Assembly: GCA_017519145.1 (NCBI GenBank) | Contig: JAFWTA010000058.1 | Coordinates: forward strand, 1-62,156 | DNA from: Ruminococcus sp. | Lineage (GTDB): Bacteria > Bacillota > Clostridia > Oscillospirales > Ruminococcaceae | Length of the DNA: 62,156 bases | Direction: 5' to 3' | Shown here: positions 12,075 to 36,352 of the stretch, piece by piece | Position numbering within the stretch: the first letter of the stretch is position 1 | Layout of the letters: every line of letters begins with the position of its first letter | Position numbers and translations under genes: made by a program | The notes under the pieces: generated by a model | Databases searched by the model: none | Seen by the model: only the letters and a program-made list of their open reading frames with translations | What the model was told of the DNA's origin: nothing

Positions 12075-12194
12075 CACACATCACCTTTCGTAAGCTCTAA
12101 TGCTATTATATACTACTTCGGCAATTTATACTAATCAAATATTGCGGCTGTTTATTCAAGAATTGCTAACATTGCACAAATTCTTCAAACCCAC

Positions 12195-12224
12195 TTTACA
12201 AATACTATGATAATAGTGTATAAT
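12195..12224 (+). promoter_or_regulatory. promoter of the xylan-operon AraC regulator
   Basis: TTTACA (12195-12200) and TATAAT (12219-12224) are spaced by 18 bases, 73 bases before the regulator ATG. On the opposite strand a TATAAT (12105-12110) lies close to the epimerase gene without a good -35 hexamer, as expected for an activator-dependent promoter of the catabolic operon. Confidence 0.6.
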
Positions 12225-12297
12225 ATATCCAGATATTACGGTGAATTATGAATATTGACATAAATTTCACAACAATTTTTGGTTAAGGAGGCTAATC

Positions 12298-13164
12298 ATG
12301 ATTAAAAATCTATCGGGCGATTACGAGACCGTCGAGTACGAAAACCAAAGATTTGTCATGCTTTACGACAACGACCAGGTCGAAGAATATCCGACACACT
12401 GGCATAATGCGGTCGAAGTCATCATCCCCCTGCACAACGGTTTTACAGTAACTTCGGGCGGTGTGGACTACCACCTGAATGAAAAAGAAATAATAATCAT
12501 CCCCCCGGGAGAGCTCCATTCAATGCCTGCTCAGGAGGGCAGACGCATCATTTTCCAGTGCGACAACAGTATAATCAGCGATGTTCCGGCTCTTGAAGCC
12601 TTGGTACCTGTATTTTCCGAAGCCTTTCACATCACCCCTGCGGTCAGCAAGGAGCTGTATATACTTTCCAGAAAGAGCATTCTTGATATATATTCCGAGT
12701 ACTACTCAAAATCTGCGCTTGCAGACGTCAGGATCTATCTTTGCCTTATAAAAATGCTCACTGCCGTCAGGGAATACCAGCTCACTCAGGCAGCCGACGC
12801 ATTTACGGGCGATCCCTCAGGCAGGGACGATACCCGAAAGTTCAGCATGGTCATGAAGTACATCAACCAGAACTATATGTACGAGATACCGCTGGAGAAG
12901 ATCGCCTCCATCGCAGGCTACAGCAAGTACCATTTTTCGCGTATTTTCAAGAAGTACAACAATGTTTCCTACATACAGTATATAAATAGTAAGAGAATAA
13001 AGGCGGCAGAAAGGCTTCTTATCGACCCGAACCTGTCTGTGACAGAGGTAGCCATGAGGGCAGGATTTGCCAGTCTCACTACCTTTAACCGTGCCTTCAA
13101 GAAAGCCAAGAACTGCACCCCCACAGAGTTCAAGACTCTTTATAAAATATCAGATCAGACATAA
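12298..13164 (+). CDS. AraC-family regulator, divergent to the xylose operon
   Basis: This 288-residue cytosolic transcription factor has an N-terminal cupin-like sugar-sensing domain (HWHNAVEVIIPLHNGFTV near 40, then IIPPGELHSMP) and a C-terminal double helix-turn-helix of AraC type (IAGYSKYHFSRIFKKYNN near 205, VAMRAGFASLTTFNRAFKK near 250). AAGGAGG lies seven bases before the ATG. It is transcribed away from the epimerase-GH3-xylA-transporter operon across a 223-base region, so it is the likely activator of that operon. The effector is probably xylose or a xylo-oligosaccharide, by context only. Confidence 0.9.
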   Translation: MIKNLSGDYETVEYENQRFVMLYDNDQVEEYPTHWHNAVEVIIPLHNGFTVTSGGVDYHLNEKEIIIIPPGELHSMPAQEGRRIIFQCDNSIISDVPALEALVPVFSEAFHITPAVSKELYILSRKSILDIYSEYYSKSALADVRIYLCLIKMLTAVREYQLTQAADAFTGDPSGRDDTRKFSMVMKYINQNYMYEIPLEKIASIAGYSKYHFSRIFKKYNNVSYIQYINSKRIKAAERLLIDPNLSVTEVAMRAGFASLTTFNRAFKKAKNCTPTEFKTLYKISDQT

Positions 13165-13169
13165 AAATG

Positions 13170-13211
13170 GATCCCGAAAACAGTTATTACTACTGACTTC
13201 GGGATCTTTTT
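13170..13211 (+). terminator. terminator after AraC regulator
   Basis: Stem GATCCCGAA/TTCGGGATC (13170-13178 and 13198-13206) is followed directly by TTTTTAT on the plus strand. Confidence 0.85.
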
Positions 13212-13260
13212 ATCGCAATTTTTGGCACATCGGATCAACCACTTCACCTTCTGCGCAATA

Positions 13261-13297
13261 AATGAACAAGGGCAGTACTCATGTACTGCCCTGCTCA
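13261..13297 (-). terminator. terminator after the XynD-like gene
   Basis: A stem GGGCAGTAC/GTACTGCCC (13269-13290) with a four-base loop, extended by ATGA/TCAT, follows the gene on the minus strand; a TTGTTCATTT tail follows. Confidence 0.75.
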
Positions 13298-13330
13298 TTT
13301 TTAATGGAAGAAAACTATATAACACTGCAA

Positions 13331-15760: not shown

Positions 15761-15782
15761 AATATATCAGCCCTCTCATTCC

Positions 15783-15835
15783 GTGACCTTAGTCACTGTT
15801 TTTATTTACATTTAAGCAACACAGACCGCGGTCAC
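15783..15835. promoter_or_regulatory. palindromic operator candidates upstream of the XynD-like gene
   Basis: The 90-base gap before the gene holds GTGACCTTAGTCAC (15783-15796) and the perfect palindrome GACCGCGGTC (15824-15833) flowing into GGTCACCG. GTGACC and GGTCAC thus recur as an inverted pair. An AraC gene lies directly upstream. These may be regulator sites or the first may be a weak hairpin; I cannot decide. Confidence 0.35.
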
Positions 15836-15850
15836 CGAAGGATGATGAGG

Positions 15851-16642
15851 TCATGTTGCATTTTGTGCTTTTTTGCGGTATTCAGAGGGAGTAAATCCCG
15901 TCTGTTCCTTGAACTGTCTTGCAAAATGGACATAGCTGTGATATCCGCTGCTTGCGGAGATATCATTGATGTTCATATTGGTGGTGGAGAGCAGCATTTT
16001 CGCATAGCTGACTCTGCTTCTCACCAGATCCTCGATAAAAGTCATACCGAAGTGCTTCTTGTAGGCGTGCTGAAAAGCCGAGCGGCTCATGCGCACCTCA
16101 TGGGCGGTACTGTCAACATTGCGCTGCTCATAAGGGCGGCTGTAGATCTTGTTGCGCACCGTAGAAATAAGCTCGAACTGAGTGCTCCTTCTGCCCGAAA
16201 CGCTGTTGAGGGAGCTCTCTCTTATTTTAATGAACATAAGCCTCATGAAGAGTTCAGCCGACTCTGCCTTGCACGGGTTGTCGGAATACTTCTCATAGGC
16301 GATGGATTTCACGCAGTAGCTGAGGAACTCAAGAGGCATTTCCATAGGGGTCTCCAGCGGTATGCCCATTCTGAGGAACTCCTCTTCTTCTCCCCTGTCG
16401 TCGAAATCAAAATGTACCCAGTCGTTCTCAAAAACGCTGCCGGCAGTACAGCGATATCGCTGAGCCCTGCCCTTGGGGTATATGAAAACAGTTCCCGCGG
16501 AGGTCACTGTTTCCCTGCCGCCGATGTCGAAGACAGCAGGAGTTCTAACCAGAAGCAGGAGGTAGTCTCCGCTCCCGTCGGGTCTGTCAATAAAAAAGTC
16601 TGCATCGTGGCAGTGATCGAAGCCAACATTATTAATTATCAT
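15851..16642 (-). CDS. AraC-family regulator of the xylanase cluster
   Basis: The 263-residue cytosolic protein has an N-terminal cupin arm (FDHCHDADFFIDRPDGSGDY with VFIYPKGRAQRYRCT, the pattern of sugar-sensing AraC proteins) and a C-terminal HTH pair (RMSRSAFQHAYKKHFGM and ASSGYHSYVHFARQFKE). ATG 16642 is used because GGAGAG lies six bases before it; a longer frame lacks a ribosome site. Placed between XynD-like and GH43 genes, on their strand, it is a probable local activator of cellulosomal xylanases. Confidence 0.88.
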   Translation of the reverse strand: MIINNVGFDHCHDADFFIDRPDGSGDYLLLLVRTPAVFDIGGRETVTSAGTVFIYPKGRAQRYRCTAGSVFENDWVHFDFDDRGEEEEFLRMGIPLETPMEMPLEFLSYCVKSIAYEKYSDNPCKAESAELFMRLMFIKIRESSLNSVSGRRSTQFELISTVRNKIYSRPYEQRNVDSTAHEVRMSRSAFQHAYKKHFGMTFIEDLVRSRVSYAKMLLSTTNMNINDISASSGYHSYVHFARQFKEQTGFTPSEYRKKAQNAT

Positions 16643-16799
16643 TGTTAACTCTCCATTTTCTGAAAAAATCGTTTTTGACAAATCCCTGATCCGAATATCT
16701 TTTCCATGTTATTTTCTATCCTGATTATACCACTTTCAAACCTATAAATATATTATTTTATTGTCAAAATTGGTAAATTTATGATATCTGCATAAAATG

Positions 16800-16825
16800 T
16801 TATCCCCTGCAGAAGCAGGGGATAA
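16800..16825 (-). terminator. terminator after the second AraC gene
   Basis: Stem TTATCCCCTGC/GCAGGGGATAA with an AGAA loop, followed by CATTTTATG on the minus strand. Confidence 0.8.
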
Positions 16826-16832
16826 TCTCAGA

Positions 16833-17585
16833 TCATTGATTTTCTTTACTGAAATCAGGGAATTTGTACCGTTTCTTGTATTCCTTCGGCGTAACACCAA
16901 GATATTTCTTGAATATCTTGATAAAATAGCTCTGAGAGCTGAAGCCGAGAAGATTACTTATTTCCGAATCGGTGTACTCCGAGAATGTGAGCAGATTAGC
17001 AGCTTCCTCAGCCTTTGTCTTACTGACATAGTTGCTGAAAGCGATGCCTGTTTCCGCCTTGAAAAGTCTCGAGAGATAAGCTGGGCTGATCTTCAGATAA
17101 GCCGCTGCATCCTCGATCATGATCTTTCCGTGAAGATGATCGCTGATATAATCCAGAGCGCGAACGATCTGCTTTGAGTAGATACCGCTGTTGCGGACTC
17201 TTCTCATATGCCTCGTATAGCCCTCGATCATTTCCTGATGGACCGCGTGGACTTCTGCTTCCGTGCGGCACTCGTCCGATTTCATTATATATATGTCGCT
17301 GAGGTTGTAAGCCTCCTCCAGAGTCATACCGCTGTTGATACAAAATCTTGCGATAAGAGCCGCGGAAATGGCAAAGTGGTATTTCAGGTTCCTGAGGGGA
17401 TCCTTGCTGAGGATACCGTAGCCCTCGCTGCACAGCGGAGTCGCAAACACCTTTACCAGCTCGATATTGCCCGAGCATATACTCTCATAGCAAGCTATCT
17501 CGCGGTCAAAGGGAGCGTGCTCAAAGCCTTCCTCACGCTTGAGGAAAAGATGGGAAGAAATATATTTCTCTGTATAGTCACTCAT
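16833..17585 (-). CDS. AraC-family regulator, second in the cluster
   Basis: The 250-residue protein has an N-terminal domain of unknown ligand (HAPFDREIACYESICSGNIE region, YesN/PocR-like pattern rather than a clear cupin) and a standard AraC C-terminus (AYLKISPAYLSRLFKAET near 165 and NLLGFSSQSYFIKIFKKYLG near 215). ATG 17585 follows AGAGGTG at seven bases; the longer frame to 17627 is unsupported. It ends at its own terminator and is flanked by secreted xylan-active enzymes. It may respond to a different signal than its neighbour. Confidence 0.87.
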   Translation of the reverse strand: MSDYTEKYISSHLFLKREEGFEHAPFDREIACYESICSGNIELVKVFATPLCSEGYGILSKDPLRNLKYHFAISAALIARFCINSGMTLEEAYNLSDIYIMKSDECRTEAEVHAVHQEMIEGYTRHMRRVRNSGIYSKQIVRALDYISDHLHGKIMIEDAAAYLKISPAYLSRLFKAETGIAFSNYVSKTKAEEAANLLTFSEYTDSEISNLLGFSSQSYFIKIFKKYLGVTPKEYKKRYKFPDFSKENQ

Positions 17586-17711
17586 GTCTAAACACCTCTC
17601 TGATATGATATGTACACCCTCGCACAAGGCTGAGCAAAGCCTGTGAGGGATAGTTTTCCCCTGTATACATATTATACCATATAAATATGAACTAATCTAC
17701 CATTTCATATG

Positions 17712-17743
17712 ACAGCTCACCGCAATATTTCGCGGTGAGCTGT
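17712..17743 (-). terminator. terminator hairpin after the GH43 gene
   Basis: A perfect 12-bp stem ACAGCTCACCGC/GCGGTGAGCTGT with an eight-base loop lies 14 bases past the GH43 stop. There is no clear T tract, so it may act as an mRNA 3' stabiliser as well. Confidence 0.6.
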
Positions 17744-17756
17744 TCATCATCAGTTA

Positions 17757-20720
17757 TCACTGACCCGATTCATGGAAGAAGTAAGGAAGTGCGTTGTATA
17801 CATAGTGTCTGACATGAGCCCACCAGTGATCGTTGCCCTGAGCCTCGAAGTAGTAGAAGTTGCCCTTTGAGAAATCAGATGTGAACCGGAACTCATCAAG
17901 CTTCTTCATTGCCTCTATCTGAGGGCCGATATTTGGCTGTGCCATATCCTTTGTACCTGTTGCTGCAAAGATGAAATACTGCCTCGGGGTAAATCCGAAC
18001 TCATGAACAGCATTAGCCAGATCCTGTGCCTTGCCGTCAGCGCTGTTGGGACCCCAGTGGTCGCCGCTGAGAGGCATGAAATAACCAACGATATCAAGGT
18101 CATTCTTGAACACAGCCCATGTGGAAACTGCGCCCATGGAGAAGCCGCCGTATGCTCTGTGCATTCTCGAAGCCTTCATACCCTCTGCTGTCGTGTTCTC
18201 CGCATAAGTGGAGTACTTGCTCTCCACAAAGGGGATAACGCTCTGGCGGAGCTCCTCATAGAAGTTCTGAGCCGAGCTTCCATTGCCGTTGAAGGTTGGA
18301 GTTACCACGATAAGGGGCTCCAGCTCTCCGTTCATTATCATGTGGTCAAGCATATTCTGTATCATAGTATCGTTATCGAAGAACAGCTTATTCTCGTTCT
18401 CGTTTCCGCCGTGCATGAGATAGAATATGTTGTACTTCTTGCTGGGATCGTAATTATAAGGAGTATAGACATACAGTGACTTGTTGCCTCTTATTCCGTT
18501 ATATGTCTCCTTCGTTACCTTGCCCTGCTGTGAGCATGAGTCAAAATAACTATTCCCGGGAGAGTCAGGAGCCGGAACATATCTCTTGTTCTCTTCATAA
18601 TTGAAATTGCTCGGAGGCGGCTCGGGAGTATTATCGGGGAACTCCTGTATCTTGCCAAGGATATACTGCTGGAGGAGCACAAGGTCGTTGACCTCATATT
18701 CCGTGCTTCTGTCAACGTCAGCCAGCTTCACAAGGTCTGCGGACTTATTTGACGAAAGGATAAGCTTTCTTGCAGCTATCATATCCATGGAGTTTATAAT
18801 GCCGTCGGAATTTACGTCGCCGAGTATGAACTGACCGCCCACAGCGCCCTCTATCTCGGTGCCTGCCGCAGCTATCTTAACATCGTCAACGTAGAAGCTT
18901 GTTGAGCCCTTGTCTGTCTCAACATATATGTATACATTCTCCGCGCCTGAGGGTATCCTGAAGCTTGTATTTGCAAGCTGAGTCCATTTGCCCTTCATTG
19001 GAGAAGCACTTGCTATTTTTTCGTACTTTGTAGTACCGTCAAGGTCGTACTGCATGGTGAAGTGGAACAGCTGACTGTCCGCGCCGCCCTCATCATACAT
19101 TACGTTTGCGCTGAAGCTGTAGCTCTCGCCTGCCCTGAAGCTGCTTCCCAGCTTGTAGGAAGCGCCCTGCCATTCATTGCTTCTGTCCGAGCAGCAGAGG
19201 GATTTGCTGCCCGTAAGAGAAGCCTTGGACGAAACCGCTACACTTGCGCCGGCTCTGCCCTCCCAGCCTTCAGCGCCGCTCTCAAAGGAGCAGCTGAGGA
19301 GGTAGTCTCCATCTGTTGTCACGGGAGGATCGGTAACTGCGGGAGTTCCCTCATCATCGCCGAATGTCCACCAGTCAACATTGAACAGATATCCGCTGCC
19401 GCCTGTGTATTTGAAGTAAAGGTCATGCTCGCCGCTTGCACCGCTGACGCTGCACGATACCTTCTCCCAATCCTGCCAGCCGCCTGTTGAGGGCACCTGA
19501 CAGGTACCTATCTTCTTGCCCGAAAGGCTGTCAAGATAGATCTCTATATCACCGCCGTCTGTTGCAGAGGCGATGTTAGCAGTAAATTTCTCCGCACCGC
19601 CGCCGAAGTCCACACCGCTGACCTTTACATAGTCGCCGTTTTCGATATTGGCAAGGTCAAGACCTCCGCTGCTGCAGCTCTCGGTCTTAACACCCTTAGA
19701 GAAACACATGGTCTCGCCCTCTACCCTCTTGAACGGATCAACGCTCTTCAGCTGCTGAGGACCTGTCTTGCTCGGAGATATAGTCGGTATGGAACCGTCC
19801 GCACCGTAGCTGAACTCCTCAACGCAGACGCTTCTGTCGAAGCTGCCGCCTCCGGGGAGACTGGCGTCATGGTAGAACAGATAGGAGTGTCCCTTGAAGT
19901 CAATGACTCCGGGGTGGTTTGTGAAGCAGTTGTGGGTCTTCATTACCTGACCGCGGTACGTCCACGGACCTGTGGGTGACGGAGCTGTGGAGTAGCCGAG
20001 GCTCTCTCCTCCGTCATTGCCGTAAAAGGCAGCAAACACCAGATAATAAAGGTCTCCGCGCTTGTAGAACCACGGTCCTTCGCCGTATGAGCTCTGCTTG
20101 CTTGATGGACCGAATGTATCCTTGTTCATGTCAAAATGCTTGATCTCGCCGTCAAGAGTGACCATGTCCTCCTTGAGCTTGACATAGTAGCAGGTTGGAT
20201 TTCCGAACATGAGCCAAGCCTGACCGTCGTCGTCAATGAAAACAGTCGGGTCGATGTAAGCCCAGTCGGGACCGCAGAGCGGTTTGCCCAGAGCGTCCTT
20301 GAAAGGACCTGTGGGAGAGTCTGCAACAGCAACGCCTATACCGCGTCCACCTCCCGATTTGTTTTCGAGAGTCACATAGTAATAGAATTTACCGTTGCGT
20401 TCGATGCACTGAGCCGCCCAAGCGGAGTCCTTTTTGCCCCATGAGAAGCTGTCCCAAGAGAGGATCATGCCGTGGTCGGTCCAGTTCTGCATATCCTGTG
20501 AGGAATAGCAGTGCCAGTCGGGCATATGGTAATTGTCGGAATTGTCCTCATCTCTGCCAGTGTACAGGTAGACCGTATCGCCGTAGACCATAGGCGCGGG
20601 ATCGGTGCTGTAAATGGTCTGGATGCAGGGATTGTCCGCACTAACATATGCAGACGGTGTGACAACTGCGGCAGGTATAGCCAGAGCTGCGGCAGTCACC
20701 ATTGAGAGGAATTTTTTCAT
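17757..20720 (-). CDS. cellulosomal GH43-CBM6-CBM22-dockerin-CE1 enzyme
   Basis: A secreted 987-residue multimodular enzyme for decorated xylan. Signal peptide to about residue 28; GH43 (about 32-318) with the acid triad visible as Asp40 (STDPAPMVYGD), Asp157 (IDPTVF) and Glu214 (GEGPWFYK); CBM6 (331-453); CBM22 (472-618); dockerin (633-694, loops GDVNSDGI and DVDRSTEY); and a C-terminal CE1 feruloyl/acetyl-xylan esterase (715-987) with nucleophile Ser861 in GGFSMG and His964 in GNDHWW. GH43 here is probably arabinofuranosidase or xylosidase. The dockerin lies between modules. A 498-base region separates it from the divergent GH11 gene. Confidence 0.92.
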   Translation of the reverse strand: MKKFLSMVTAAALAIPAAVVTPSAYVSADNPCIQTIYSTDPAPMVYGDTVYLYTGRDEDNSDNYHMPDWHCYSSQDMQNWTDHGMILSWDSFSWGKKDSAWAAQCIERNGKFYYYVTLENKSGGGRGIGVAVADSPTGPFKDALGKPLCGPDWAYIDPTVFIDDDGQAWLMFGNPTCYYVKLKEDMVTLDGEIKHFDMNKDTFGPSSKQSSYGEGPWFYKRGDLYYLVFAAFYGNDGGESLGYSTAPSPTGPWTYRGQVMKTHNCFTNHPGVIDFKGHSYLFYHDASLPGGGSFDRSVCVEEFSYGADGSIPTISPSKTGPQQLKSVDPFKRVEGETMCFSKGVKTESCSSGGLDLANIENGDYVKVSGVDFGGGAEKFTANIASATDGGDIEIYLDSLSGKKIGTCQVPSTGGWQDWEKVSCSVSGASGEHDLYFKYTGGSGYLFNVDWWTFGDDEGTPAVTDPPVTTDGDYLLSCSFESGAEGWEGRAGASVAVSSKASLTGSKSLCCSDRSNEWQGASYKLGSSFRAGESYSFSANVMYDEGGADSQLFHFTMQYDLDGTTKYEKIASASPMKGKWTQLANTSFRIPSGAENVYIYVETDKGSTSFYVDDVKIAAAGTEIEGAVGGQFILGDVNSDGIINSMDMIAARKLILSSNKSADLVKLADVDRSTEYEVNDLVLLQQYILGKIQEFPDNTPEPPPSNFNYEENKRYVPAPDSPGNSYFDSCSQQGKVTKETYNGIRGNKSLYVYTPYNYDPSKKYNIFYLMHGGNENENKLFFDNDTMIQNMLDHMIMNGELEPLIVVTPTFNGNGSSAQNFYEELRQSVIPFVESKYSTYAENTTAEGMKASRMHRAYGGFSMGAVSTWAVFKNDLDIVGYFMPLSGDHWGPNSADGKAQDLANAVHEFGFTPRQYFIFAATGTKDMAQPNIGPQIEAMKKLDEFRFTSDFSKGNFYYFEAQGNDHWWAHVRHYVYNALPYFFHESGQ

Positions 20721-21218: not shown

Positions 21219-24200
21219 GTGAAAGCAAACAAAATCATCAGCGGGATAGTCTCAGCTTTACTCATCGCTGCAAATATTCCCGCAGCCCTTCCTACAAATG
21301 CAGCAGGTCAGACATACAGTCTGAACGGTGCAGGACAGCATAAGGGCACAGGTCCCGACGGATACAGCTACGAGATCTGGGCAGCCGACACAAACCAGCC
21401 GTCATCAATGACTCTGGGTGACAACGGCACATTCACCACAAAGTGGAACTGCTCAGGTCAAAACGGAAACTTCCTCGCTCGCCGCGGTATCGACATGGGC
21501 AGTACCAAGACATTCCAGCAGTACGGCGCTATCTCTTGTGACTTTGACGTAAGCTGGTCAGCAAGCAGCTCAGGAAATTCCCGTCTTTGTATCTACGGCT
21601 GGACACAGAACCCTCTCGTAGAGTACTACATTGTTGAGGACTGGAAAAACTGGTGCCCCCCCAACGGACAGCCCGGAGCCGGAAGTCCTTTAGGTACAGT
21701 TGATCTTGACGGAGCAAAGTACTACATCTACAAGGAAAACCGCAATTCCTACACTATCGAAGGAAACAAGCCCTTCGTACAGTACTTCAGTGTCCGCAGC
21801 AGCGGCAGAACAAAGGGTACCATCAGCGTTTCCAAGCACTTCGAGGCTTGGGAGTCCAAGGGACTCCAGATGGGAAAGATGTATGAGGTCGCTTTCAACG
21901 TTGAGGGCTGGGAGAGCTCAGGAGAAGCCAACGTAAAGAAGAACACCATTTCCCTCGGAATGGCTCATGATGATCCTACACCTACTCCTTCTGTTTCCGT
22001 TGAGCCCGATGCAAACGGATATTACTTCAACACCGATTTTGAGTCAGGCAAGAACAACTGGACAGGACGCGGAAATGCCAGTGTCTCTGCTTCAACAGGC
22101 TACGACGGCTCAAAGGGCATCGTCGCTTCCGACAGAACCGAAAAGTGGCACGGTGCAGCTATCGAGCTCGATGAAAACGCTTTCAAAGCAGGCGAGACTT
22201 ACAGCTTCGGAGTAATGGCAATGCAGAATACAGATTCTTCTGCCACAATGAAGCTCTCTCTCCAGTACTCGGGCAGCTCGGGCGAAAGCTACGATGAAAT
22301 TGCTACAGCCAAGGCTTCCAAGGGGCAGTGGGTATCAGTGTCAAATCCCACCTACACCATTCCCGCAGGCGCTTCCGATCTCCTTCTTTACATCGAGACA
22401 ACAGACAGCCTTGCAGACATATATGTGGACAACGCTTTCGGTGCTGTAAGCGGCACAAAGCCCAGCGTTACACCTTCAACATCCACTCCCGTCACCGTTG
22501 ATCCCACTCCTGTCACATCCAAGACCGACAAGATAAAGATCATGCCCGCAGGCGACTCCATCACCTTCGGTATGGGCGATGACGGCGGATACAGAAAGTT
22601 CCTGGACTACTTCCTCAAGGAAAAGGGCTACACCAATGTGGATTTCGTAGGTCCCGAGGGTTCTAACAGCGCAACTTTCTCATACAACGGAAAGACCGTT
22701 ACTTATGACGACAACCACGCAGGCTACAGCGGCTACACCATCAAGCAGCACGCAGGCGGCTGGAGCAATAACAGCGGTCTTTATGAAACGCTCAAGAATA
22801 AAAACGCAGTCAAGAGTGCTGATCCCGATATCATCCTTCTCATCATCGGTACAAACGATATGACTGCTAACCGCTCAATGAGCGAGTGTGAGGACGACCT
22901 CCACACCCTCCTCGACTATATGCTGGGAGATATGTCCTCAGACGGCATGATCTTCCTCTCCACCATTCCGGAGCTCAGCGCTTTCGGCGGCGGAGACAAC
23001 ACCCAGAAGATAGCTAACTACAACAGCCTCGTGAAGAAGGTCGCTCAGGAGTACAGCAGCAGCGGCAAGCACGTTACATTTGCCGATATCCACGGCTGCC
23101 TCAACGGCACAGCCGATCTCGGCGACGGTATCCACCCCAGCAAGACAGGCTACGAGAAGATGGGCAAGTACTGGGCAGGCGTCATCGACGAATACATCTC
23201 AGCTTCACAGCCCTCAACTCCCGTGGTACAGCCCTCAACAGGTGTCCGCGGCGATACAAATTCCGACGGCGTAGTTGACTCATTCGACCTTATCCCTCTC
23301 AGAAAGAGCATTCTGGCAGTAATGGCAGGAAGCGGCAAGGCTGCTCCCAACTCAGATGTAAACGGCGACGGTGACGTTTCGGTTGCTGACCTTGTAACCC
23401 TCAAGCAGTTCCTCCTCGGCAAGATCAGCAAGTTCCCCGATGTTGTTACAACATCCACAACAACAGCTCCCAGAATAACCACTACCACCACAACTTCAAA
23501 GCCAATTTCGCAGGGACAGAACCTCAATGCACAGATCCGTCAGGATATGCCTACTTCAGTTCCCAGCGGCAATGAGCAGAGCAACAAGTGCAAGGTCGAG
23601 AAGAAAACTTATAACTGTAAATTCACAGGCGGACAGAAGAGCTGTAACGTCGTTCTTCCTCCCAACTATGATCCGAACAAGCAGTACCCCGTAATGTACG
23701 TTCTTCACGGTATCGGCGGCAACGAAGATTCCATGGTAAGCGGCATGGGCGTTCAGGAGCTTCTTGCAGGACTTATCAGCAACGGCAAGGCAGAAGAAAT
23801 GATCATTGTTCTTCCCAGCCAGTATACAAGCAAGAACGGCGCACAGGGCGGCTTCGGCATCAATCAGGAGGTATGCGAAGCTTATGATAACTTCCTCTAT
23901 GACATCTCAGACAGCCTTATCCCCTTCATCGAGGCTAACTACCCCGTAAAGACAGGCAGAGAGAACAGAGCTATCACAGGCTTCTCAATGGGCGGCCGTG
24001 AGGCTATCTACATCGGACTCATGCGTCCCGACCTTTTCGCTTATGTAGGCGGTGCGTGCCCTGCTCCCGGAATTACACCCGGCAGCGATATGTTCATGGA
24101 TCACCCCGGCTGTATGAGCGAGAGCGAGATGAAGTTCAGAGACGTAGGTCCCGAGCCTAACGTATTCTTCATCACAGGCGGAACAAACGATTCTGTTGTC

Positions 24201-24341
24201 GGCACATTCCCCAAGCAGTACAGTGACATTCTCACAAGAAACGGTGTTGACCATGTTTACCAGTCCATCCCCGGCGGCGGACACGGCGACAACTCAGTTA
24301 AACCCCACCTCTATACATTCTTCAGATACGCTTTCAAATAA
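21219..24341 (+). CDS. trifunctional cellulosomal GH11-CBM22-CE3-dockerin-CE1 enzyme
   Basis: A secreted 1040-residue enzyme combining xylan cleavage with two esterases. Signal peptide to about residue 28; GH11 (30-246; Glu135 and Glu229); CBM22 (267-412); SGNH acetyl-xylan esterase of CE3 type (437-665; Ser447 in AGDSITFG, GTND at 544, Asp636/His639 in DGIHP); dockerin (676-741, loops GDTNSDGV and DVNGDGDV); Thr linker; CE1 feruloyl-esterase-like domain (770-1040; Ser923 in GFSMGG, His1022). Start is GTG with AAAGGAG nine bases upstream. It resembles R. flavefaciens XynB (GH11 with a CE3 esterase) plus an extra CE1. Confidence 0.92.
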   Translation: MKANKIISGIVSALLIAANIPAALPTNAAGQTYSLNGAGQHKGTGPDGYSYEIWAADTNQPSSMTLGDNGTFTTKWNCSGQNGNFLARRGIDMGSTKTFQQYGAISCDFDVSWSASSSGNSRLCIYGWTQNPLVEYYIVEDWKNWCPPNGQPGAGSPLGTVDLDGAKYYIYKENRNSYTIEGNKPFVQYFSVRSSGRTKGTISVSKHFEAWESKGLQMGKMYEVAFNVEGWESSGEANVKKNTISLGMAHDDPTPTPSVSVEPDANGYYFNTDFESGKNNWTGRGNASVSASTGYDGSKGIVASDRTEKWHGAAIELDENAFKAGETYSFGVMAMQNTDSSATMKLSLQYSGSSGESYDEIATAKASKGQWVSVSNPTYTIPAGASDLLLYIETTDSLADIYVDNAFGAVSGTKPSVTPSTSTPVTVDPTPVTSKTDKIKIMPAGDSITFGMGDDGGYRKFLDYFLKEKGYTNVDFVGPEGSNSATFSYNGKTVTYDDNHAGYSGYTIKQHAGGWSNNSGLYETLKNKNAVKSADPDIILLIIGTNDMTANRSMSECEDDLHTLLDYMLGDMSSDGMIFLSTIPELSAFGGGDNTQKIANYNSLVKKVAQEYSSSGKHVTFADIHGCLNGTADLGDGIHPSKTGYEKMGKYWAGVIDEYISASQPSTPVVQPSTGVRGDTNSDGVVDSFDLIPLRKSILAVMAGSGKAAPNSDVNGDGDVSVADLVTLKQFLLGKISKFPDVVTTSTTTAPRITTTTTTSKPISQGQNLNAQIRQDMPTSVPSGNEQSNKCKVEKKTYNCKFTGGQKSCNVVLPPNYDPNKQYPVMYVLHGIGGNEDSMVSGMGVQELLAGLISNGKAEEMIIVLPSQYTSKNGAQGGFGINQEVCEAYDNFLYDISDSLIPFIEANYPVKTGRENRAITGFSMGGREAIYIGLMRPDLFAYVGGACPAPGITPGSDMFMDHPGCMSESEMKFRDVGPEPNVFFITGGTNDSVVGTFPKQYSDILTRNGVDHVYQSIPGGGHGDNSVKPHLYTFFRYAFK
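21303..21956 (+). repeat. GH11 coding segment, inverted copy B
   Basis: Inverted partner of 15011-15664. The pair flanks two AraC genes and the GH43 gene, so recombination between the copies would invert about 5.6 kb between them. Confidence 0.85.
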
Positions 24342-29423: not shown

Positions 29424-30563
29424 ATGAAGTCAAAGAGAATAGCACTGAAGGCTGCATCCTTTATTGCAGCTGCAACACTGTCTGCTGCAATGCCGCTTTC
29501 CACTATCGGAAGCACATTCATGCAGTCTGCACTTACCGCATACGCTGCGGAAACTTCCGGCAGTCTCACATATGAGAAGTACGATGACCATGTTGAGATC
29601 GTAGGAAGCGATTACAAGGCAACATCCATCGAGATACCGTCTTCTATCTCAGGACTGCCGGTTACTGCCATCGGTGATTACGCATTCAACGGCTGCTCAC
29701 TTTCAAGCGTGACCATCCCGGATACAGTCAAGACCATCGGCAAATACGCATTCGCCATGAGTTCAAATCTTAAATCCGTAACCATCCCCGAAAGCGTTGA
29801 GTTCATTGATCTCCGCGCATTCGATCTGTGTAAGCAGCTTTCCGAGGTGAACTTGCCCGATAAGATGATCGAGATGTCCGCAAGGGTATTTGACAATACT
29901 CCTTGGATCGACGCTCAGCGCCAGAAGAATGATCTCGTCATCATCAACGGCAACCTCATCGACGGTGAAAAAGCCAAGGGCGATGTGGTGATCCCTTCGG
30001 ACGTAAAGTACGTTTCGGCAGGCGCTTTTGAGAGAAACGAGGATATCACCTCCGTTGTATTCCCCTCAAGCGTTACCAAGATCAACGACAACGTATTCTT
30101 CTACTGCTCAAATCTGAAGTCAGTTGACGCAAAAAGCTGTACATTCATCGACAGCATGGCTTTTGCTTACTGCAATAAGCTCACCGATCTCAAGGTATCC
30201 GGCAAGATGACAAAGATCGACTATATGGCATTCTCAGACGTTACTGCTCAGGCTACCATCACTGTATACGGCACTAAGGCAGACTGGGATCAGGCTGACA
30301 AGCCCACAGACGACAAGTTCCTTAACAATGCAAAATATATCTTCGATGAGAGCTATGTAGCTCCTCCCGAGGAGATCGAGGGCGACCTCAATGCAGACGG
30401 CTCATTCAACACAGCCGATCTGATACTCATGAACAAGTGGCTCCTCAATGTTCCCGGCACTGAGCTCGCAAACTGGAAGGCAGGCGACTTCATCAAGGAC
30501 GAGCAGCTTGACGTTTACGATCTCGTTCTCATGAGAAAGGCTCTTATCGCAAAGGGTCAATAA
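29424..30563 (+). CDS. secreted LRR_5-dockerin protein, short
   Basis: A 379-residue secreted protein: signal peptide (to about 40, ending AYAAE), roughly eight BspA/LRR_5 repeats (for example YAFNGCSLSSVTIPDTV), and a C-terminal dockerin (about 318-376, loops GDLNADGSFNTADL and DFIKDEQLDVYDL). AGGAGG lies before the ATG. It is divergent from a longer relative at 27115, but the dockerins differ in sequence type, so the two may dock on different cohesins. No catalytic motif is present. Confidence 0.9.
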   Translation: MKSKRIALKAASFIAAATLSAAMPLSTIGSTFMQSALTAYAAETSGSLTYEKYDDHVEIVGSDYKATSIEIPSSISGLPVTAIGDYAFNGCSLSSVTIPDTVKTIGKYAFAMSSNLKSVTIPESVEFIDLRAFDLCKQLSEVNLPDKMIEMSARVFDNTPWIDAQRQKNDLVIINGNLIDGEKAKGDVVIPSDVKYVSAGAFERNEDITSVVFPSSVTKINDNVFFYCSNLKSVDAKSCTFIDSMAFAYCNKLTDLKVSGKMTKIDYMAFSDVTAQATITVYGTKADWDQADKPTDDKFLNNAKYIFDESYVAPPEEIEGDLNADGSFNTADLILMNKWLLNVPGTELANWKAGDFIKDEQLDVYDLVLMRKALIAKGQ

Positions 30564-30795: not shown

Positions 30796-31347
30796 ATGAA
30801 CGACTCGGAAATACTTGAACTGCTGCATCAGTCACCGCAAAAAGGACACCGCGCCCTGTTCGATGAATACTACAGCTATGTCTACGCAATATCCGTGAAT
30901 ATCCTCAGGGACTTCGGCTCTCGCGAGGACATCGAGGAGTGCGTCATCGACACCTTTACTTCCGTCATAAACAAGCTTGACGAAAGCGCTGTGGGCTCTG
31001 TTAAGCCCTTTGTAGGCACAGTTGCCAAGCATAAGGCAATAAGTATGCGTAGGTCTCTTATGTCAAGGGCAGGAAAATGCATATCCATGGACAGCGATGA
31101 GCTGGACGAGCTCCGCTCTGAGGAACGTGTGGACAGGAACGCCGAAAGATCCGACATGACAAGGCAGCTGCTTCAGAAGATAAAAGAGCTGGGCGAGCCT
31201 GACTCCGCCATCATCATACAGAAATATTTCTACGGACAAAACGCAAATGAGATAGGCAGAATGCTGGACATGAAGCCCGCAACAGTGCGTATGCGCTGTA
31301 CAAGGGCGATAAAAAAGCTCCGCAGCCTGCTCAGTGACTTCTTTTAA
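30796..31347 (+). CDS. ECF-like RNA polymerase sigma factor 1
   Basis: A 183-residue sigma factor with region 2 (about 20-85; DEYYSYVYAISVNILRDFG then EDIEECV) and region 4 (about 120-180; ending VRMRCTRAIKKLRSLL). It is a clear paralogue of the product at 35545: both have EDIEECV, GEPDS and an R-C-RA--KLR signature in region 4. Regions 1 and 3 are missing, as in extracytoplasmic-function sigma factors. It is followed 13 bases later by a single-pass membrane protein that is its likely anti-sigma. GGAGG precedes the ATG. Confidence 0.88.
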   Translation: MNDSEILELLHQSPQKGHRALFDEYYSYVYAISVNILRDFGSREDIEECVIDTFTSVINKLDESAVGSVKPFVGTVAKHKAISMRRSLMSRAGKCISMDSDELDELRSEERVDRNAERSDMTRQLLQKIKELGEPDSAIIIQKYFYGQNANEIGRMLDMKPATVRMRCTRAIKKLRSLLSDFF

Positions 31348-31360
31348 AGGAGAGATAGTT

Positions 31361-32566
31361 ATGAAAAAGGATACAGATAAGCTTTTCGGCAATATCAGCG
31401 ATGAGGAAGCCGAGAGGATAGCCGCCGATTATCCCACGGGAGATAAGGAACAGCGTGACCGCATTTTCAATGAGATAGAACGCCGCGTTGAAGGCAGAAC
31501 GACCTCAGATGACATGGACGTCAGCGGTGTTGAGACCTACCGTCCCAGAATATATATGAAGGTCATATCCGCTGCGGCAGCCTTGGTGCTCGCAGCAGGT
31601 GCGGCAGTGGGCGGAAGTTACCTGCTCCGCGGCAGAGACAAAAATCTGACAGTGGAGCCATCCTCAGATGTAATTGAGGAGACTGCCGAGACAACAGCTG
31701 CTCCCACTACCGAGGAGCAGACCACAGAGCCAGAGGTACCTACAGAGGAACAGCTCCTTGAACTGCTGAACAGCCGCTCCTACGACGATTATCCGCAGCT
31801 CAATATAGGCTACACTATGGTCAGCGACAATGGAGTATCAACAGAACGAGGCCTCGCCAAGAGGGATATGGTCACAGGAAACGAGTCCATGGTGAAGAAA
31901 TGGAGCCATAATGCCGAATATTACAAGAACTTCAGCGATGAAGATCTCGCTGACTGGGGAATAGACCTTGACAACGTCGAGAGCATCTATACCTCAAACG
32001 AAATGTTCATGTACAAGGATCTGTATATCTGTGTATACGGAAGCAGCGACAAAAACTTTATAGAACAGTATGAGGTAACAGACCGTAAGGACAGCGTGTT
32101 CGATACGCCCAATGTTTTCGCAAGCCCCTGCAATTTTTATTCCGAGGTCGTTCTCGAGGAGATAAACACGGGCAAATATGAGATACAGGAGATAAGCGGA
32201 GAAGCCACCTTTCTCGGCAGAGACTGCACCTCAGCACGCCTTTTCTGCCCCAGTGTGACAGAATATGAGCAAAAAATGGGACGAGGCGGAGTACGCATTT
32301 TTGACGAGGAGTATGTTGATGAGGTACAGCTGGACATTCTCGTGGATAACGAGACAGGCTTAATTCTCTGGTTCAAGGATACTCAGGGAGAATACACCGA
32401 GGAATACTCAGTGGATACTCTCCTGTTCAACGAGGACGCAGAGCTTCCCGAGGACGGCGCTGACATCAAAGAGCGTCTGTCGGGCTGTGCTCCCAACACT
32501 GAAGAGACTGCTTCTTACGACCTCAGCATACTTGATGAAACTCCCGACAGCGAAAATATAGGATAA
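31361..32566 (+). CDS. membrane anti-sigma-like protein with extracellular sensor
   Basis: The 401-residue protein has a cytoplasmic N-terminus of about 64 residues, one membrane helix (about 65-89), a Thr/Glu-rich stalk and an extracellular domain of about 260 residues. The juxtamembrane motif DVSGVE (53-58) also occurs, in the same place, in the membrane protein at 34155. The outer domain has late pieces (GEATFLGRDCTSARLF, then DILVDNETGLILWFKD) that recall LolA/RseB-like folds; this is a guess from pattern. ATG 31361 follows AAAGGAGAG; a longer frame overlaps the sigma gene. Role as anti-sigma is inferred from topology and gene order. Confidence 0.75.
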   Translation: MKKDTDKLFGNISDEEAERIAADYPTGDKEQRDRIFNEIERRVEGRTTSDDMDVSGVETYRPRIYMKVISAAAALVLAAGAAVGGSYLLRGRDKNLTVEPSSDVIEETAETTAAPTTEEQTTEPEVPTEEQLLELLNSRSYDDYPQLNIGYTMVSDNGVSTERGLAKRDMVTGNESMVKKWSHNAEYYKNFSDEDLADWGIDLDNVESIYTSNEMFMYKDLYICVYGSSDKNFIEQYEVTDRKDSVFDTPNVFASPCNFYSEVVLEEINTGKYEIQEISGEATFLGRDCTSARLFCPSVTEYEQKMGRGGVRIFDEEYVDEVQLDILVDNETGLILWFKDTQGEYTEEYSVDTLLFNEDAELPEDGADIKERLSGCAPNTEETASYDLSILDETPDSENIG

Positions 32567-32960: not shown

Positions 32961-33983
32961 TCAGCCTTCATTGAAAGCTGTGAGGTACTTTTCAAATGAA
33001 ACAGCCTGTGTCTTTACTGTCGAATTGTAAGCGTAGTAGGAAAGTACGCAGGAAGCGTCAACGGAATTTACTGCGCCGTCGCCGTTTACGTCTGCTGACT
33101 TTATCTGTGCCTCGGTGAAGCTGCCGCCCTTGCTGGTGGAGCTCATAGCATAGTGGGAAAGGATATTAGAAGCGTCGATAGCGTTGATAACATTGTCGTT
33201 GTTCACATCGCCCAGTGAGTATGCTGTTGTCTCAGTTTCCTTTACAAAGCGAGCCAGACCGCCGTTGCCAAGGCTGAGCACGTCTGTTCCTGCGAGGCTG
33301 TATGCTGTGTACTTCAGTGCCGAGCCCTCATAGAAGCTGAGAACTGTAAATTCTGTTTCTTCGATCTTGTCGGTACCGAGCTTTACTGTGCCTGCGGAGG
33401 TCTTGCCCTCTGCGTCTGTGTACTTGTATGTAAAATCTGCATTTATCTCAACAGTGCCTACATTCTTTGCACTCTTATCTACTGTGTTATTTCCCTCTGA
33501 TACCTGATGTGTCCACTTGCCTGCGAAGCTGGTGATGCTTGCTGTTGTCTCAGCTTCCTTTACGAAGCGAGCCAGACCGCCGTTGCCAAGGCTGAGCACG
33601 TCTGTTCCTGCGAGGCTGTATGCTGTGTACTTCAGTGCCGAGCCCTCATAGAAGCTGAGAACTGTAAATTCTGTTCCTTCGATCTTGTCGGTACCGAGCT
33701 TTATTGTGCCTGCGGAGGTCTTGCCCTCTGCGTCTGTGTACTTGTATGTGGAATCTGCATTTATCTCAACAGTGCCTACATTCTTTGCACTCTTATCTAC
33801 TGTGTTATTTCCCTCTGATACCTGATGTATCCACTCGCCTGTGAAAGCCTTGATATCTGTAACGCTGTTGTCAGCAGCTGCTGATACTGAAGCAGAAGCT
33901 GTATCTGCTGCGCAAAGTGCATTTACGGGAGCTGCCGAGAACATAAGGCTGAGAGCCGCAATAAAAGTAACCATATTTTTCAT
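32961..33983 (-). CDS. secreted dockerin protein with two copies of an undescribed domain
   Basis: A 340-residue secreted protein: signal peptide (to about 25), two near-identical 106-residue repeats (47-147 and 153-253) and a C-terminal dockerin (257-325; loops GDVNNDNV and DVNGDGAV, with SHYA/SYYA). Each repeat has the pattern F-G-W--Q-S-GN-TVD...GTVEI--D-TY-YT...GNGGL-R-V. The same domain is in the extracellular part of the membrane protein at 34155. ATG 33983 follows AGGAGG; a longer frame runs through the promoter. The ECF-type promoter upstream matches that of the sigma gene at 35545. The domain looks like a small beta-barrel; function is unknown. Confidence 0.88.
   Translation of the reverse strand: MKNMVTFIAALSLMFSAAPVNALCAADTASASVSAAADNSVTDIKAFTGEWIHQVSEGNNTVDKSAKNVGTVEINADSTYKYTDAEGKTSAGTIKLGTDKIEGTEFTVLSFYEGSALKYTAYSLAGTDVLSLGNGGLARFVKEAETTASITSFAGKWTHQVSEGNNTVDKSAKNVGTVEINADFTYKYTDAEGKTSAGTVKLGTDKIEETEFTVLSFYEGSALKYTAYSLAGTDVLSLGNGGLARFVKETETTAYSLGDVNNDNVINAIDASNILSHYAMSSTSKGGSFTEAQIKSADVNGDGAVNSVDASCVLSYYAYNSTVKTQAVSFEKYLTAFNEG
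33231..33866 (-). repeat. 318-bp tandem duplication inside the dockerin gene
   Basis: Two adjacent copies with a 318-base period differ at about nine positions by eye count. This is a recent in-frame duplication of one domain unit. Confidence 0.9.
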
Positions 33984-34045
33984 AATAAATTCCTCCTGGA
34001 TCATCTTTGTTTTTTTAATCTTTAAGATCGACCTTTCATAAACAG

Positions 34046-34074
34046 TAATCGGAGTTCCCACAGGAGGTGTTACA
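34046..34074 (-). promoter_or_regulatory. putative ECF-type promoter of the dockerin gene
   Basis: On the minus strand TGTAAC (34069-34074) and CGATTA (34046-34051) are spaced by 17 bases. The 52 bases from 34074 to 34023 align without gaps to 36192-36141 upstream of the sigma gene, with 36 identities including TGTAACACCT, CCGATT and TGAAAGG-CGA-CTTA. Confidence 0.65.
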
Positions 34075-34112
34075 AAAATTCAAAAAAAATTTCAGAATTA
34101 TTTTGAAAAGCA

Positions 34113-34139
34113 AAAACCACCCGTTTTCAGGGTGGTTTT
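34113..34139 (-). terminator. terminator of the second sigma/anti-sigma pair
   Basis: Stem AAAACCACCC/GGGTGGTTTT, with TTGCTTTTC following on the minus strand. Confidence 0.85.
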
Positions 34140-34154
34140 CAGTGTTTATTCAGT

Positions 34155-35531
34155 TCAGCTGAGGGGAGAAAAGTCACCAAAGGTATACTGTCTGCCGACC
34201 TCTGTCCAGTTTTTGGAATTGAAGTTGTTTGCTGCGGCGTTATATTCTTCTTCACTGACATAGTTATTGTCAACGTCATAGTAGTATAACTGCGGATCCT
34301 CGGGATAAGAGAATTTACTCATTATTTTTCTCTGCTGTACAGAATTATCCCGGAATTCACCTATAAACGCAGAATAATAATCTGCAAAGTACTCCCCTTC
34401 ATCGTCATCAGCAAAGCCAACAAGATTTTCATCATTGCAGAGCAAGAACGTTCCGTATCTGCCGAGTTCAAAAATTACTATCTGACCGACTATTTTTGCA
34501 GAGCCGTTCTCATAATAGTATATCCTGCAGCCTGAATTATGGTCTGAGCCCATTGATATAAGGAGCTCGGGAACACCGTCGTTATCGATGTCCCTGACAT
34601 CCCACATTGACTCGGAAGAGTATTCCGATGTATTCATAAAGTCTGTAAGCACCTGCTTATAAGCTGTTTTCCAGCTTGCGGTCACGCTTGGAGCAGAAGC
34701 TTCAGCGCTGCCCGCGCGGACAAGTCTCTCAAGACCGCCGTTGCCAATGCCGAGCTGGTCCAGTCCCTCATTATAAGTTGCAGCGAACTTTATCGCAGTG
34801 CCATCGTAGAACACGAGTGTTACTAACTGAGTACCTGCTATTTCATCGACTGTTCTCTCTACCCTGTCTGTGGTAACATTTCCGCTGTTTTCGGTATATG
34901 TGTATGTGCCGTCGCCGCGTATCTCAACAGTACCTATATTGTTTGCGCCCTGATCAACGGTATAGTTTCCGCTTGACGCCTGATATACCCATGTGCCTGC
35001 AAAGGGCTTCAGAAGTGCATTCTCGGCTGTTTCCTCCGCAGTATCCCCGCTGCCCAGCACCAATGATGTTACTGCCGAAGCATTTGCCGTGGTGGTAGTA
35101 GTCCCTGTGACAGACCCCTTCGGACCTGTTGATGAGGGTGTAGTACCTGTTCCCGAAGTTGTTGTTACTGTTACGGCAGGAGTCACTACTCCTCCGCCGC
35201 CTCCGGGCTTGTGGTTCCTGTTCAGCATAGCTGTACTGCCGATAGCGATGCCTGCGATGAGCACTATTGAAGCAGCTGTGGCAAGAGGTGTCAGCCATGC
35301 AGGTCTCTTTGCGACCTCAACACCGCTTACATCATCGTTTTTAGTCATTTTGATAGCAGATCCTCTTTCTGTTCCTTCAGCCTGTGCCATCTGCTTTCTG
35401 AATTTCTTCTCACTCATGGCAAGTATCCTGTCAAGCTCTTCGTCTGAGATCTCGGGGCACTTATCTATAAGTCTCTCCATTGAATCATTCTCCGCATTTT
35501 CAAGAATGTCGAATAAATCCTTTTCTCTCAT
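34155..35531 (-). CDS. membrane anti-sigma-like protein sharing the dockerin-protein domain
   Basis: A 458-residue single-pass protein. N-terminal cytoplasmic part (1-79) with the juxtamembrane motif DVSGVE (67-72) also found in the protein at 31361; membrane helix about 81-103; a Gly and Thr-rich stalk (107-160); one copy of the undescribed domain (177-275; GTWVYQ, TVEIRGDGTYTYT, GNGGLERLV); and a C-terminal domain (287-450) with DIDNDGVPELLIS, a calcium-loop-like motif seen in clostridial surface proteins. It starts 13 bases after the sigma gene. The likely role is to hold the sigma factor until an outside signal is sensed; the pair-wise arrangement is the evidence. Confidence 0.78.
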   Translation of the reverse strand: MREKDLFDILENAENDSMERLIDKCPEISDEELDRILAMSEKKFRKQMAQAEGTERGSAIKMTKNDDVSGVEVAKRPAWLTPLATAASIVLIAGIAIGSTAMLNRNHKPGGGGGVVTPAVTVTTTSGTGTTPSSTGPKGSVTGTTTTTANASAVTSLVLGSGDTAEETAENALLKPFAGTWVYQASSGNYTVDQGANNIGTVEIRGDGTYTYTENSGNVTTDRVERTVDEIAGTQLVTLVFYDGTAIKFAATYNEGLDQLGIGNGGLERLVRAGSAEASAPSVTASWKTAYKQVLTDFMNTSEYSSESMWDVRDIDNDGVPELLISMGSDHNSGCRIYYYENGSAKIVGQIVIFELGRYGTFLLCNDENLVGFADDDEGEYFADYYSAFIGEFRDNSVQQRKIMSKFSYPEDPQLYYYDVDNNYVSEEEYNAAANNFNSKNWTEVGRQYTFGDFSPLS

Positions 35532-35544
35532 TTCTGCTCCCCCC

Positions 35545-36111
35545 TTATCTTTCTATTCCGACTTCAACAAGCTTCGCGCGCAGCTTGTCCATAGCCCTTG
35601 AGCATCTCTGCCTTACCGCTACCGCAGTCATGGAGAGATACGATGCAATTTCACTTGAATTTTTGTTATAATAGAATTTCTGTATAAGTATAGTCGAATC
35701 AGGTTCACCCAGCTCGTCTATCTTATCAAGGAGCACGCGGCGGAGTTCTGTTCGGTCAACGTGCTCGTCAACACTGAAGTCCGAGGCAAGCTCTGTCATA
35801 TCATCGTCATCCGTGTCTGTTATATGCTTTGATTTTGCGCACAGGCTTCGGAAACGATCTATAGACTTTCTCTGAGCGATGGTGCCTATAAGGCTCTTGA
35901 TATCATTTTCCGATGACAGGTCAAACTGACACTTCATAAAAAGGTCTGCAAAGACGTCACTGACGCACTCTTCGATATCCTCTTTTGTGCCGCATCCTCT
36001 GAGCCTGTTGAAAACGATAGCATATACATATCTGCCGTATTCCCTGACCAGCGCTTTGTGGCAGTCCGCAGGTGATCTCTGCATCATTTCTGCCAGTTCT
36101 CTGCTTGTCAT
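35545..36111 (-). CDS. ECF-like RNA polymerase sigma factor 2
   Basis: A 189-residue sigma factor with region 2 (about 20-90; REYGRYVYAIVFNRLRGCG, then EDIEECV) and region 4 (about 125-180; GEPDSTILIQKFYYN, VRQRCSRAMDKLRAKL). It is a paralogue of the product at 30796. ATG 36111 is preferred over ATG 36117 since AGGAGG is seven bases away from the former and abuts the latter. It is cotranscribed with the membrane protein at 34155. Two promoters precede it: a perfect sigma-A promoter and an ECF-type element shared with the dockerin gene, suggesting self-activation. Confidence 0.88.
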   Translation of the reverse strand: MTSRELAEMMQRSPADCHKALVREYGRYVYAIVFNRLRGCGTKEDIEECVSDVFADLFMKCQFDLSSENDIKSLIGTIAQRKSIDRFRSLCAKSKHITDTDDDDMTELASDFSVDEHVDRTELRRVLLDKIDELGEPDSTILIQKFYYNKNSSEIASYLSMTAVAVRQRCSRAMDKLRAKLVEVGIER

Positions 36112-36163
36112 TTTCATTCCTCCTCGCGATCTGTAAATAATAAGGTCGGCCTTTCAATAAGAA

Positions 36164-36192
36164 CAATCGGGTCACGAGCCGCAGGTGTTACA
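36164..36192 (-). promoter_or_regulatory. putative ECF-type promoter of the sigma gene
   Basis: TGTAAC (36187-36192), 17 bases, CGATTG (36164-36169) on the minus strand, followed by TTGAAAGGCCGACCTTA. It matches the element at 34023-34074 in sequence and spacing. Confidence 0.65.
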
Positions 36193-36323: not shown

Positions 36324-36352
36324 ATTATAACTCTTACATCAACCGTTGTCAA
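36324..36352 (-). promoter_or_regulatory. consensus sigma-A promoter upstream of the sigma gene
   Basis: Perfect TTGACA (36347-36352) and TATAAT (36324-36329) with a 17-base spacer. It would give basal transcription with a leader of about 205 bases. Confidence 0.85.

Follow-up and report, generated by a model that had tools for sequence, protein, structure and literature searches.

A sigma operon and a dockerin gene at one locus

The window analysed here, the whole stretch of 62,156 nucleotides of contig JAFWTA010000058.1 (assembly GCA_017519145.1), comes from a 3.17 Mb Ruminococcus genome, 94% complete, of a rumen-type fibre degrader, R. flavefaciens-like and cellulosome-bearing; judged by the domain described below, R. 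flavefaciens SAb67 and ND2009 are the closest named relatives. Between positions 32961 and 36192 a gene for a sigma factor of the extracytoplasmic function (ECF) type is followed by a gene for an anti-sigma-like membrane protein and by a gene for a secreted dockerin protein that carries the same outer domain behind the same putative promoter. The elements of this locus are:

36141-36192, minus strand: predicted ECF-type promoter of the sigma/anti-sigma operon, TGTAACACCT-N12-CCGATTG...TTGAAAGGCCGACCTTA
35545-36117, minus strand: ECF sigma factor, 190 amino acids; a second ATG at 36111 is a possible alternative start
34155-35531, minus strand: anti-sigma-like membrane protein, 458 amino acids, predicted single-pass
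34710-35012, minus strand: shared extracellular domain, residues 174-274 of the anti-sigma-like protein
34023-34074, minus strand: predicted ECF-type promoter of the dockerin gene, same block as 36141-36192
32961-33983, minus strand: secreted dockerin protein, 340 amino acids when read from the corrected start; its N terminus resembles a signal peptide and is followed by two copies of the domain and a dockerin
33552-33854, minus strand: domain copy 1, residues 44-144 of the dockerin protein
33234-33536, minus strand: domain copy 2, residues 150-250 of the dockerin protein
33045-33215, minus strand: type I dockerin module, the best among the 84 Dockerin_1 matches listed for the genome

The sigma factor matched Sigma70_r2 and Sigma70_r4_2 above the Pfam cut-offs and the NCBIfam model sigma70-ECF at 3.7e-19, and with regions 2 and 4 only in about 190 residues it has the make-up of an ECF factor. 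Only 13 bases separate its gene from that of the anti-sigma-like protein, in which a single hydrophobic stretch, the predicted transmembrane segment near residue 80, is preceded by an N-terminal cytoplasmic region and followed by a threonine-rich linker, the shared domain and a C-terminal region; in the latter, a resemblance to FG-GAP stayed far below the cut-off. The membrane copy of the domain aligned with the dockerin protein in BLASTP at 8e-29 and 4e-26 (43-44% identity, 45% over the domain alone), and the two dockerin copies agree at 92 of 101 residues. An earlier reading made without database searches (the sequence-only reading) had described both the sigma gene followed by a single-pass membrane protein and the domain present once there and twice in the dockerin protein, and the searches confirmed these descriptions.

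The GTG at 34061, listed as start of the dockerin ORF, falls within the promoter block, so that ATG 33983 is the likely start. The N terminus read from it, MKNMVTFIAALSLMFSAAP, is signal-peptide-like by eye and by hydropathy. Dockerin_1 matched this protein at 4e-13, and a Pfam search gave no recognised catalytic domain. Since the protein combines a dockerin with a predicted secretion signal in a genome that also encodes cohesins (11 matches, 10 above cut-off), it can be taken as a predicted cellulosome subunit.

The near-identical ECF-like promoters that the sequence-only reading had seen before both genes were recovered as a 52-base block, TGTAACACCT-N12-CCGATT-N4-TTWWTGAAAGGYCGAYCTTA; this pattern, drawn from the two window sites themselves, matched the window twice with no mismatch and was found in none of 100 shuffles of the window. 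An AAC-type -35 and a CG-type -10 element precede the sigma operon, as is usual for ECF factors. In the whole host genome, a pattern derived from relatives found three sites at up to three mismatches, namely both window sites and one before the closest sigma paralogue. The -35/-10 core alone had three exact sites genome-wide, two of them the window promoters, and with one mismatch its total (17+13) was little above that of a reversed-pattern control (10+11).

The window sigma factor has 11 close paralogues in its own genome (E<1e-37) and six more between 7e-8 and 6e-4. For all 12 members of the family, the gene that follows the sigma gene encodes a related N-terminal region with a hydrophobic stretch, and the outer parts differ. 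The closest paralogue (L153:5758-7374, G000:C48, hereafter C48; 66%) has a -35 element TGCAGCA and follows a gene for a CAP-domain dockerin protein; at L154 and L166, too, the sigma gene comes after one for a similarly sized protein with a dockerin motif. The host genome has at least 84 dockerin matches (150 of the 192 candidates scored) in 3.17 Mb, and it is therefore unsurprising that some of the 12 sigma pairs lie near one. Gene adjacency was dropped as an argument, and the shared promoter and domain were used instead.

Searches of the domain against Pfam and NCBIfam gave no family above cut-off and no carbohydrate-binding module (CBM) family among the matches listed. A 62-row profile found no PDB chain better than E 0.16, and the hits of the PDB profile searches were at chance level; a fatty-acid-binding protein listed with a 10-row profile (E 0.68) did not reappear, nor did any such protein, with 62 rows. 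Likeness to TIGR03067 and calycin-like small beta proteins was weak and far below cut-offs (TIGR03067: 0.00022 for the dockerin protein; two of 62 domain copies, best 0.0016).

Related genomes and the remainder of the window

The domain was found in 50 of 125 genomes of the genus. Surroundings were taken for all listed matches except three in short frames (G001:C7, G002:C9, G008:C8), and at E 1e-3 or better 102 open reading frames (ORFs) carried the domain. Thirty-seven of these, in 32 genomes, lie directly behind a sigma gene, 13 have a dockerin motif (12 genomes), 27 a C-terminal hydrophobic segment (24 genomes), and 25 were classed as other (20 genomes). The repeated co-location with this sigma family that the sequence-only reading had looked to is thus present. 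Its reservation, that the domain might be a generic one found without such neighbours, applies to part of the set: 52 of the 102 proteins are neither anti-sigma nor dockerin proteins, some of them adjoining a response regulator, as against the 37 behind a sigma gene and the 13 of dockerin type. Each of the 12 genomes with a dockerin-type protein also holds the anti-sigma type. Compared with the 12 paralogues of the host, the paired sigma was closest to the window sigma in 34 of 37 pairs (67-93% identical, the window's own row aside) and closer to C48 in three (G001, G014, G020).

Outside these classes, the domain occurs at L072:3090-7829 in a 270-residue lipoprotein-like protein and in a larger LPXTG-anchored neighbour, beside an OmpR-type response regulator. 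Similar loci are L073, L075, L080, L081 and L083, and a GATTACAAATTTGTAATT-like palindrome lies upstream of several genes of this class, which may represent a second route to this domain, by way of a two-component system. Among sampled genomes of the family the domain was present in seven of 297, five of them outside the genus. The anti-sigma N-terminal region matched at E<1e-9 in at least 12 of the 297 (best 15 candidates per genome scored), and many weaker matches cover mainly the membrane segment. In a tree of 127 domain copies, read without branch support, the dockerin copies are scattered over more than one part, and no number of twin origins is taken from it. A second outer region of about 150 residues follows the shared domain in the anti-sigma proteins of G015, G059 and G105 and in the dockerin proteins of G010, G014 and G067, the two versions being 38-50% identical; in this comparison the carriers were different genomes, none having it in both kinds of protein.

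With fixed spacing and up to three mismatches, the promoter was found at 64 sites in 32 of the 125 genomes, against none in 125 for the reversed-pattern control and a chance expectation of 6e-5 for uniform bases. Thirty-two sites precede sigma genes of the domain type, including one in G096 whose contig stops short of the anti-sigma gene; 14 are of the TGCAGCA type; 11 precede dockerin-domain genes, one a remnant (G021); the other seven comprise six before other genes and one without a nearby ORF. When counted by class with up to five mismatches, the promoter was present before 33 of 37 sigma/anti-sigma operons, 10 of 13 dockerin-type genes and two of the 52 other domain genes (10/13 versus 2/52, Fisher 1e-7, uncorrected for genome relatedness). 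Those two, L069 (the G021 dockerin-domain remnant) and L043 (an anti-sigma-like fragment), belong to the 25 other genes, and none of the 27 with a C-terminal hydrophobic segment carried it. The four operons missed were L053, with six mismatches, and, as judged by eye, L057 and L068, where the block lacks one base, and L070, where it is degenerate.

The dockerin gene adjoins its cognate sigma gene in two genomes only, the window's (G000) and G008; near the G008 pair a second sigma ORF of the family was seen (L122:11361-11912). In eight of the 10 motif-bearing genomes the dockerin gene lies away from the cognate sigma, seven of them with no sigma of the family within the 13 kb examined around it. 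The coupling therefore holds in trans, and local duplication alone is insufficient to account for it. At all 12 of the 14 TGCAGCA sites that were examined the gene downstream encodes C48 itself or a sigma closest to C48, a pattern to be expected from sigma factors that each recognise a promoter of their own. Agreement of the -10 variant (CGATT or CGAAT) between the sigma and dockerin genes of one genome was considered as well, but at eight of 10 by eye (about p = 0.07, by hand) it was weak and was not used.

At L158-L162 and L106:9910 the promoter was also seen before a secreted-looking protein of 123-125 residues (G015, G067, G105), a lipoprotein-like protein of 270-300 residues (G015, G067) and an M4-peptidase dockerin protein (G015), which are possible members of the regulon.

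Further features of the window are:

36324-36352, minus strand: vegetative-type promoter TTGACA-17-TATAAT upstream of the sigma gene, with all 12 hexamer positions matched; it probably gives basal expression
34113-34139, strand left open (the scan gave plus): terminator-like hairpin, 10 pairs, between the anti-sigma gene and the dockerin promoter
30796-31347, plus strand: second ECF sigma, a member of this paralogue family with 44% identity to the sigma at 35545
31334-32566, plus strand: anti-sigma-like partner of the second sigma, with a different ectodomain

The scan found 11 promoter-like sites in the stretch covered (shuffle mean 5.2) and two terminator-like hairpins, no excess over the shuffle mean of 3.5. 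With the vegetative-type promoter upstream of the sigma gene, expression that is both basal and self-driven appears plausible. The bases after the putative start site, e.g. window 36141-36160, form an inverted repeat AAGG-UCGA-CCUU whose sequence varies among family members with some paired changes, e.g. AAGATCGATCTT. As a candidate 5'-leader hairpin it was followed through 11 of the 12 family leaders; 53 of 1000 dinucleotide shuffles had as low a folding energy and the stem test gave p<0.05 in three of 11, and we make no claim for it. The second pair (30796-32566), whose anti-sigma-like protein had no Pfam match, adjoins a leucine-rich repeat (LRR) dockerin gene at 29424-30563. Close to the sensor genes, positions 4410-20720 hold an apparent xylan/xylose cluster, presumably with a transporter, a xylose-isomerase-like gene (7762-9114), genes like glycoside hydrolase (GH) families GH3 and GH43, and AraC-type regulators. 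Secreted multidomain proteins at 13331-15760 (minus) and 21219-24341 (plus) have near-identical N-terminal modules of about 200 residues, which we take to be GH11-like, and differ in dockerin and catalytic-looking parts.

A putative sensing domain in two proteins

We consider it likely that the locus represents an autoregulated ECF sensor circuit that co-induces a dockerin-borne copy of its own sensing module. That the sigma factor drives its own operon and the dockerin gene, as the sequence-only reading had supposed, is probable from the promoter conserved in 33 of 37 pairs and from the eight relatives in which the coupling holds in trans. Beyond gene order, topology, shared domains and promoter and conservation in trans, all of which are read from the DNA itself, we infer a course of sigma sequestration, ligand release and regulon use. 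The N-terminal cytoplasmic region of the anti-sigma-like protein would hold the sigma factor at the membrane, and the sigma would be set free once the outer domain met its ligand, for which a surface polymer of plant or microbial origin is the likeliest candidate. The freed sigma would then raise its own operon and, as the promoter evidence suggests, switch on the secreted dockerin protein. Through its dockerin this protein would bring the sensing module to the cellulosome, where it would most likely serve as a non-catalytic subunit that binds the detected ligand or targets the complex to it. We thus favour one binding module that may be used twice, to sense and, via the dockerin, to target the cellulosome. 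The interpretation given in the sequence-only reading is in this way supported in its regulatory half; its signalling half, in which the two outer domains would share a ligand or bind one another and the state of the cellulosome would be reported to the cell, stays a hypothesis. A wider version, in which about 12 ECF sigma/anti-sigma sensors would set surface and cellulosome make-up and in at least one loop the dockerin twin would load the sensing module and reset or steer the sensor, we put forward only tentatively.

Several observations weigh against the co-induction circuit. The anti-sigma role of the membrane protein is suggested by gene position and topology, and its N-terminal region contained no known anti-sigma domain of Pfam or NCBIfam; a 12-row profile of this region against PDB gave as best hit an unrelated viral protein (E 0.026). 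The ZAS anti-sigma domain binds zinc and has the motif HxxxCxxC; no Pfam or NCBIfam match to this class I type was obtained, and the motif was absent by eye from the N-terminal sequences of the paralogues. The visible regulon in the host genome is tiny, the sigma operon plus one gene. Three of the 13 dockerin-type genes have no motif (L035, with seven mismatches, and L077 in G070; L085 in G104). No dockerin twin was found in 20 of the 32 sensor genomes, some of which are incomplete (G021 has a remnant), and G022, the closest genome by these genes, holds the sensor copy only. LPXTG and lipoprotein-like proteins also carry the domain without this promoter. Finally, cohesins occur in 124 of the 125 genus genomes; cellulosome presence therefore fails to explain the patchy distribution of the circuit, and cohesin presence was dropped as an uninformative covariate.

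Negative feedback by a decoy, in which the dockerin twin soaks up ligand or anchors it away from the sensor so that the circuit resets, appears unlikely. The common domain and promoter, the absence of a recognised catalytic module from the window protein and the two domain copies usual in the secreted protein (11 of 13; nine of the 10 with motif) would suit it, but a pure decoy needs no dockerin-directed placement in the cellulosome, and one protein with the domain is anchored in the cell wall and encoded next to a different regulator, a setting that resembles general ligand binding.

Another sigma factor of the 12-member family, instead of the local one, might read these promoters, and this we regard as quite unlikely. 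The leaders of the family are alike after the -10 element (WTGA in 11 of 12, WTGAAAG in seven of 12, by eye), the paired sigma is closer to C48 in the three genomes named above, and in G011 the dockerin twin (L105:5168-7044) is followed 0.3 kb downstream by the gene of a C52-like family member (59%), so that another sigma could drive the dockerin gene there, a further point against the circuit as proposed. Promoters of the C48 group nevertheless have their own -35 element TGCAGCA, while TGTAACA tracks the domain-type pairs.

Homotypic reporting, in which the domains of sensor and dockerin protein bind each other and the sensor counts subunits near the cell, would agree with the shared domains and the sequence-based co-regulation; we hold it to be very unlikely, since a partner seems unnecessary where sensors occur without one, as in the 20 genomes mentioned. 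Least probable of all is an accident of gene families, i.e. a generic surface module with a dockerin gene that acquired the neighbouring promoter by local duplication, for which the 52 domain proteins of other kinds and the adjacency of the cognate pair in G000 and G008 only may be quoted, but which is at odds with the retention of the promoter, in eight genomes, ahead of dockerin-domain genes that are not beside the cognate sigma, with the two visibly different dockerin types (by eye) among the dockerin-domain proteins and with the lack of the promoter before 50 of the 52 other domain genes.

Comparison with known sensor systems

The co-induction circuit proposed here shares with ECF sigma/membrane anti-sigma pairs in general the two-gene unit, the AAC-type -35 and CG-type -10 elements before the sigma gene and the predicted single-pass regulator. 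It differs in an anti-sigma region without a Pfam or NCBIfam domain, in 12 close paralogues in one genome and in an outer domain that recurs in a dockerin protein whose gene has the same promoter. As for an ECF group number, ECF262 has an R. albus example under 'Others' in the cited part of PMC8999054. Like the non-catalytic LRR and CAP dockerin proteins of the same genome, the window protein is secreted-looking, has a dockerin and lacks a recognised enzyme domain; unlike them, it is built from the outer domain of a sensor and stands under the promoter of that sensor.

Among open PMC full texts, mostly judged from title and start of abstract and with subscription literature mostly outside this scope, we recognised no account of ECF sensor pairs tied to Ruminococcus dockerin proteins, and the passages cited here name no sensor for Ruminococcus. 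What is offered is a candidate sensor suite for this genus, with 12 pairs in one genome and a recognisable promoter for two members, a previously unnamed outer domain of about 100 residues delimited in 50 of 125 genus genomes, and a directly testable target in the dockerin protein, which is made up of the domain that the sensor itself carries.

The closest parallel is SigI/RsgI of Clostridium thermocellum (Acetivibrio), which the sequence-only reading had rightly called similar in logic but different in domain and sigma family. According to the cited passages (PMC4711584, PMC6056542), that system likewise has many paralogous sigma/single-pass anti-sigma pairs whose outer modules differ; autoregulation is probable, cellulosomal genes share the promoter, and the sensing modules match the regulated function. 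For example, SigI3 drives genes for pectin degradation, and pectin is what the module of RsgI3 binds (PMC4711584). The sigma factors differ: SigI is described as having a SigI-C domain in place of region 4 (PMC6056542), whereas the present factor matched Sigma70_r4 and Sigma70_r4_2 above cut-off and is of ECF type. RsgI_N had no match in the host genome (94% complete), with a positive control in Bacillus subtilis. The -35 element is TGTAACA here and AAA in the passage cited for SigI (PMC4711584), the outer domain has no CBM family among its listed Pfam and NCBIfam matches, and the predicted dockerin target copies the sensing domain and has no recognised catalytic module. A dedicated RsgI suite is, in the part of the source cited, used only by Acetivibrio-type cellulosome makers (PMC11557425). 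By analogy, the roughly 12 paralogous pairs with their other outer domains may be the ECF-based counterpart of the C. thermocellum suite, and the pairing of sensor and dockerin protein may help to explain how Ruminococcus controls its cellulosome.

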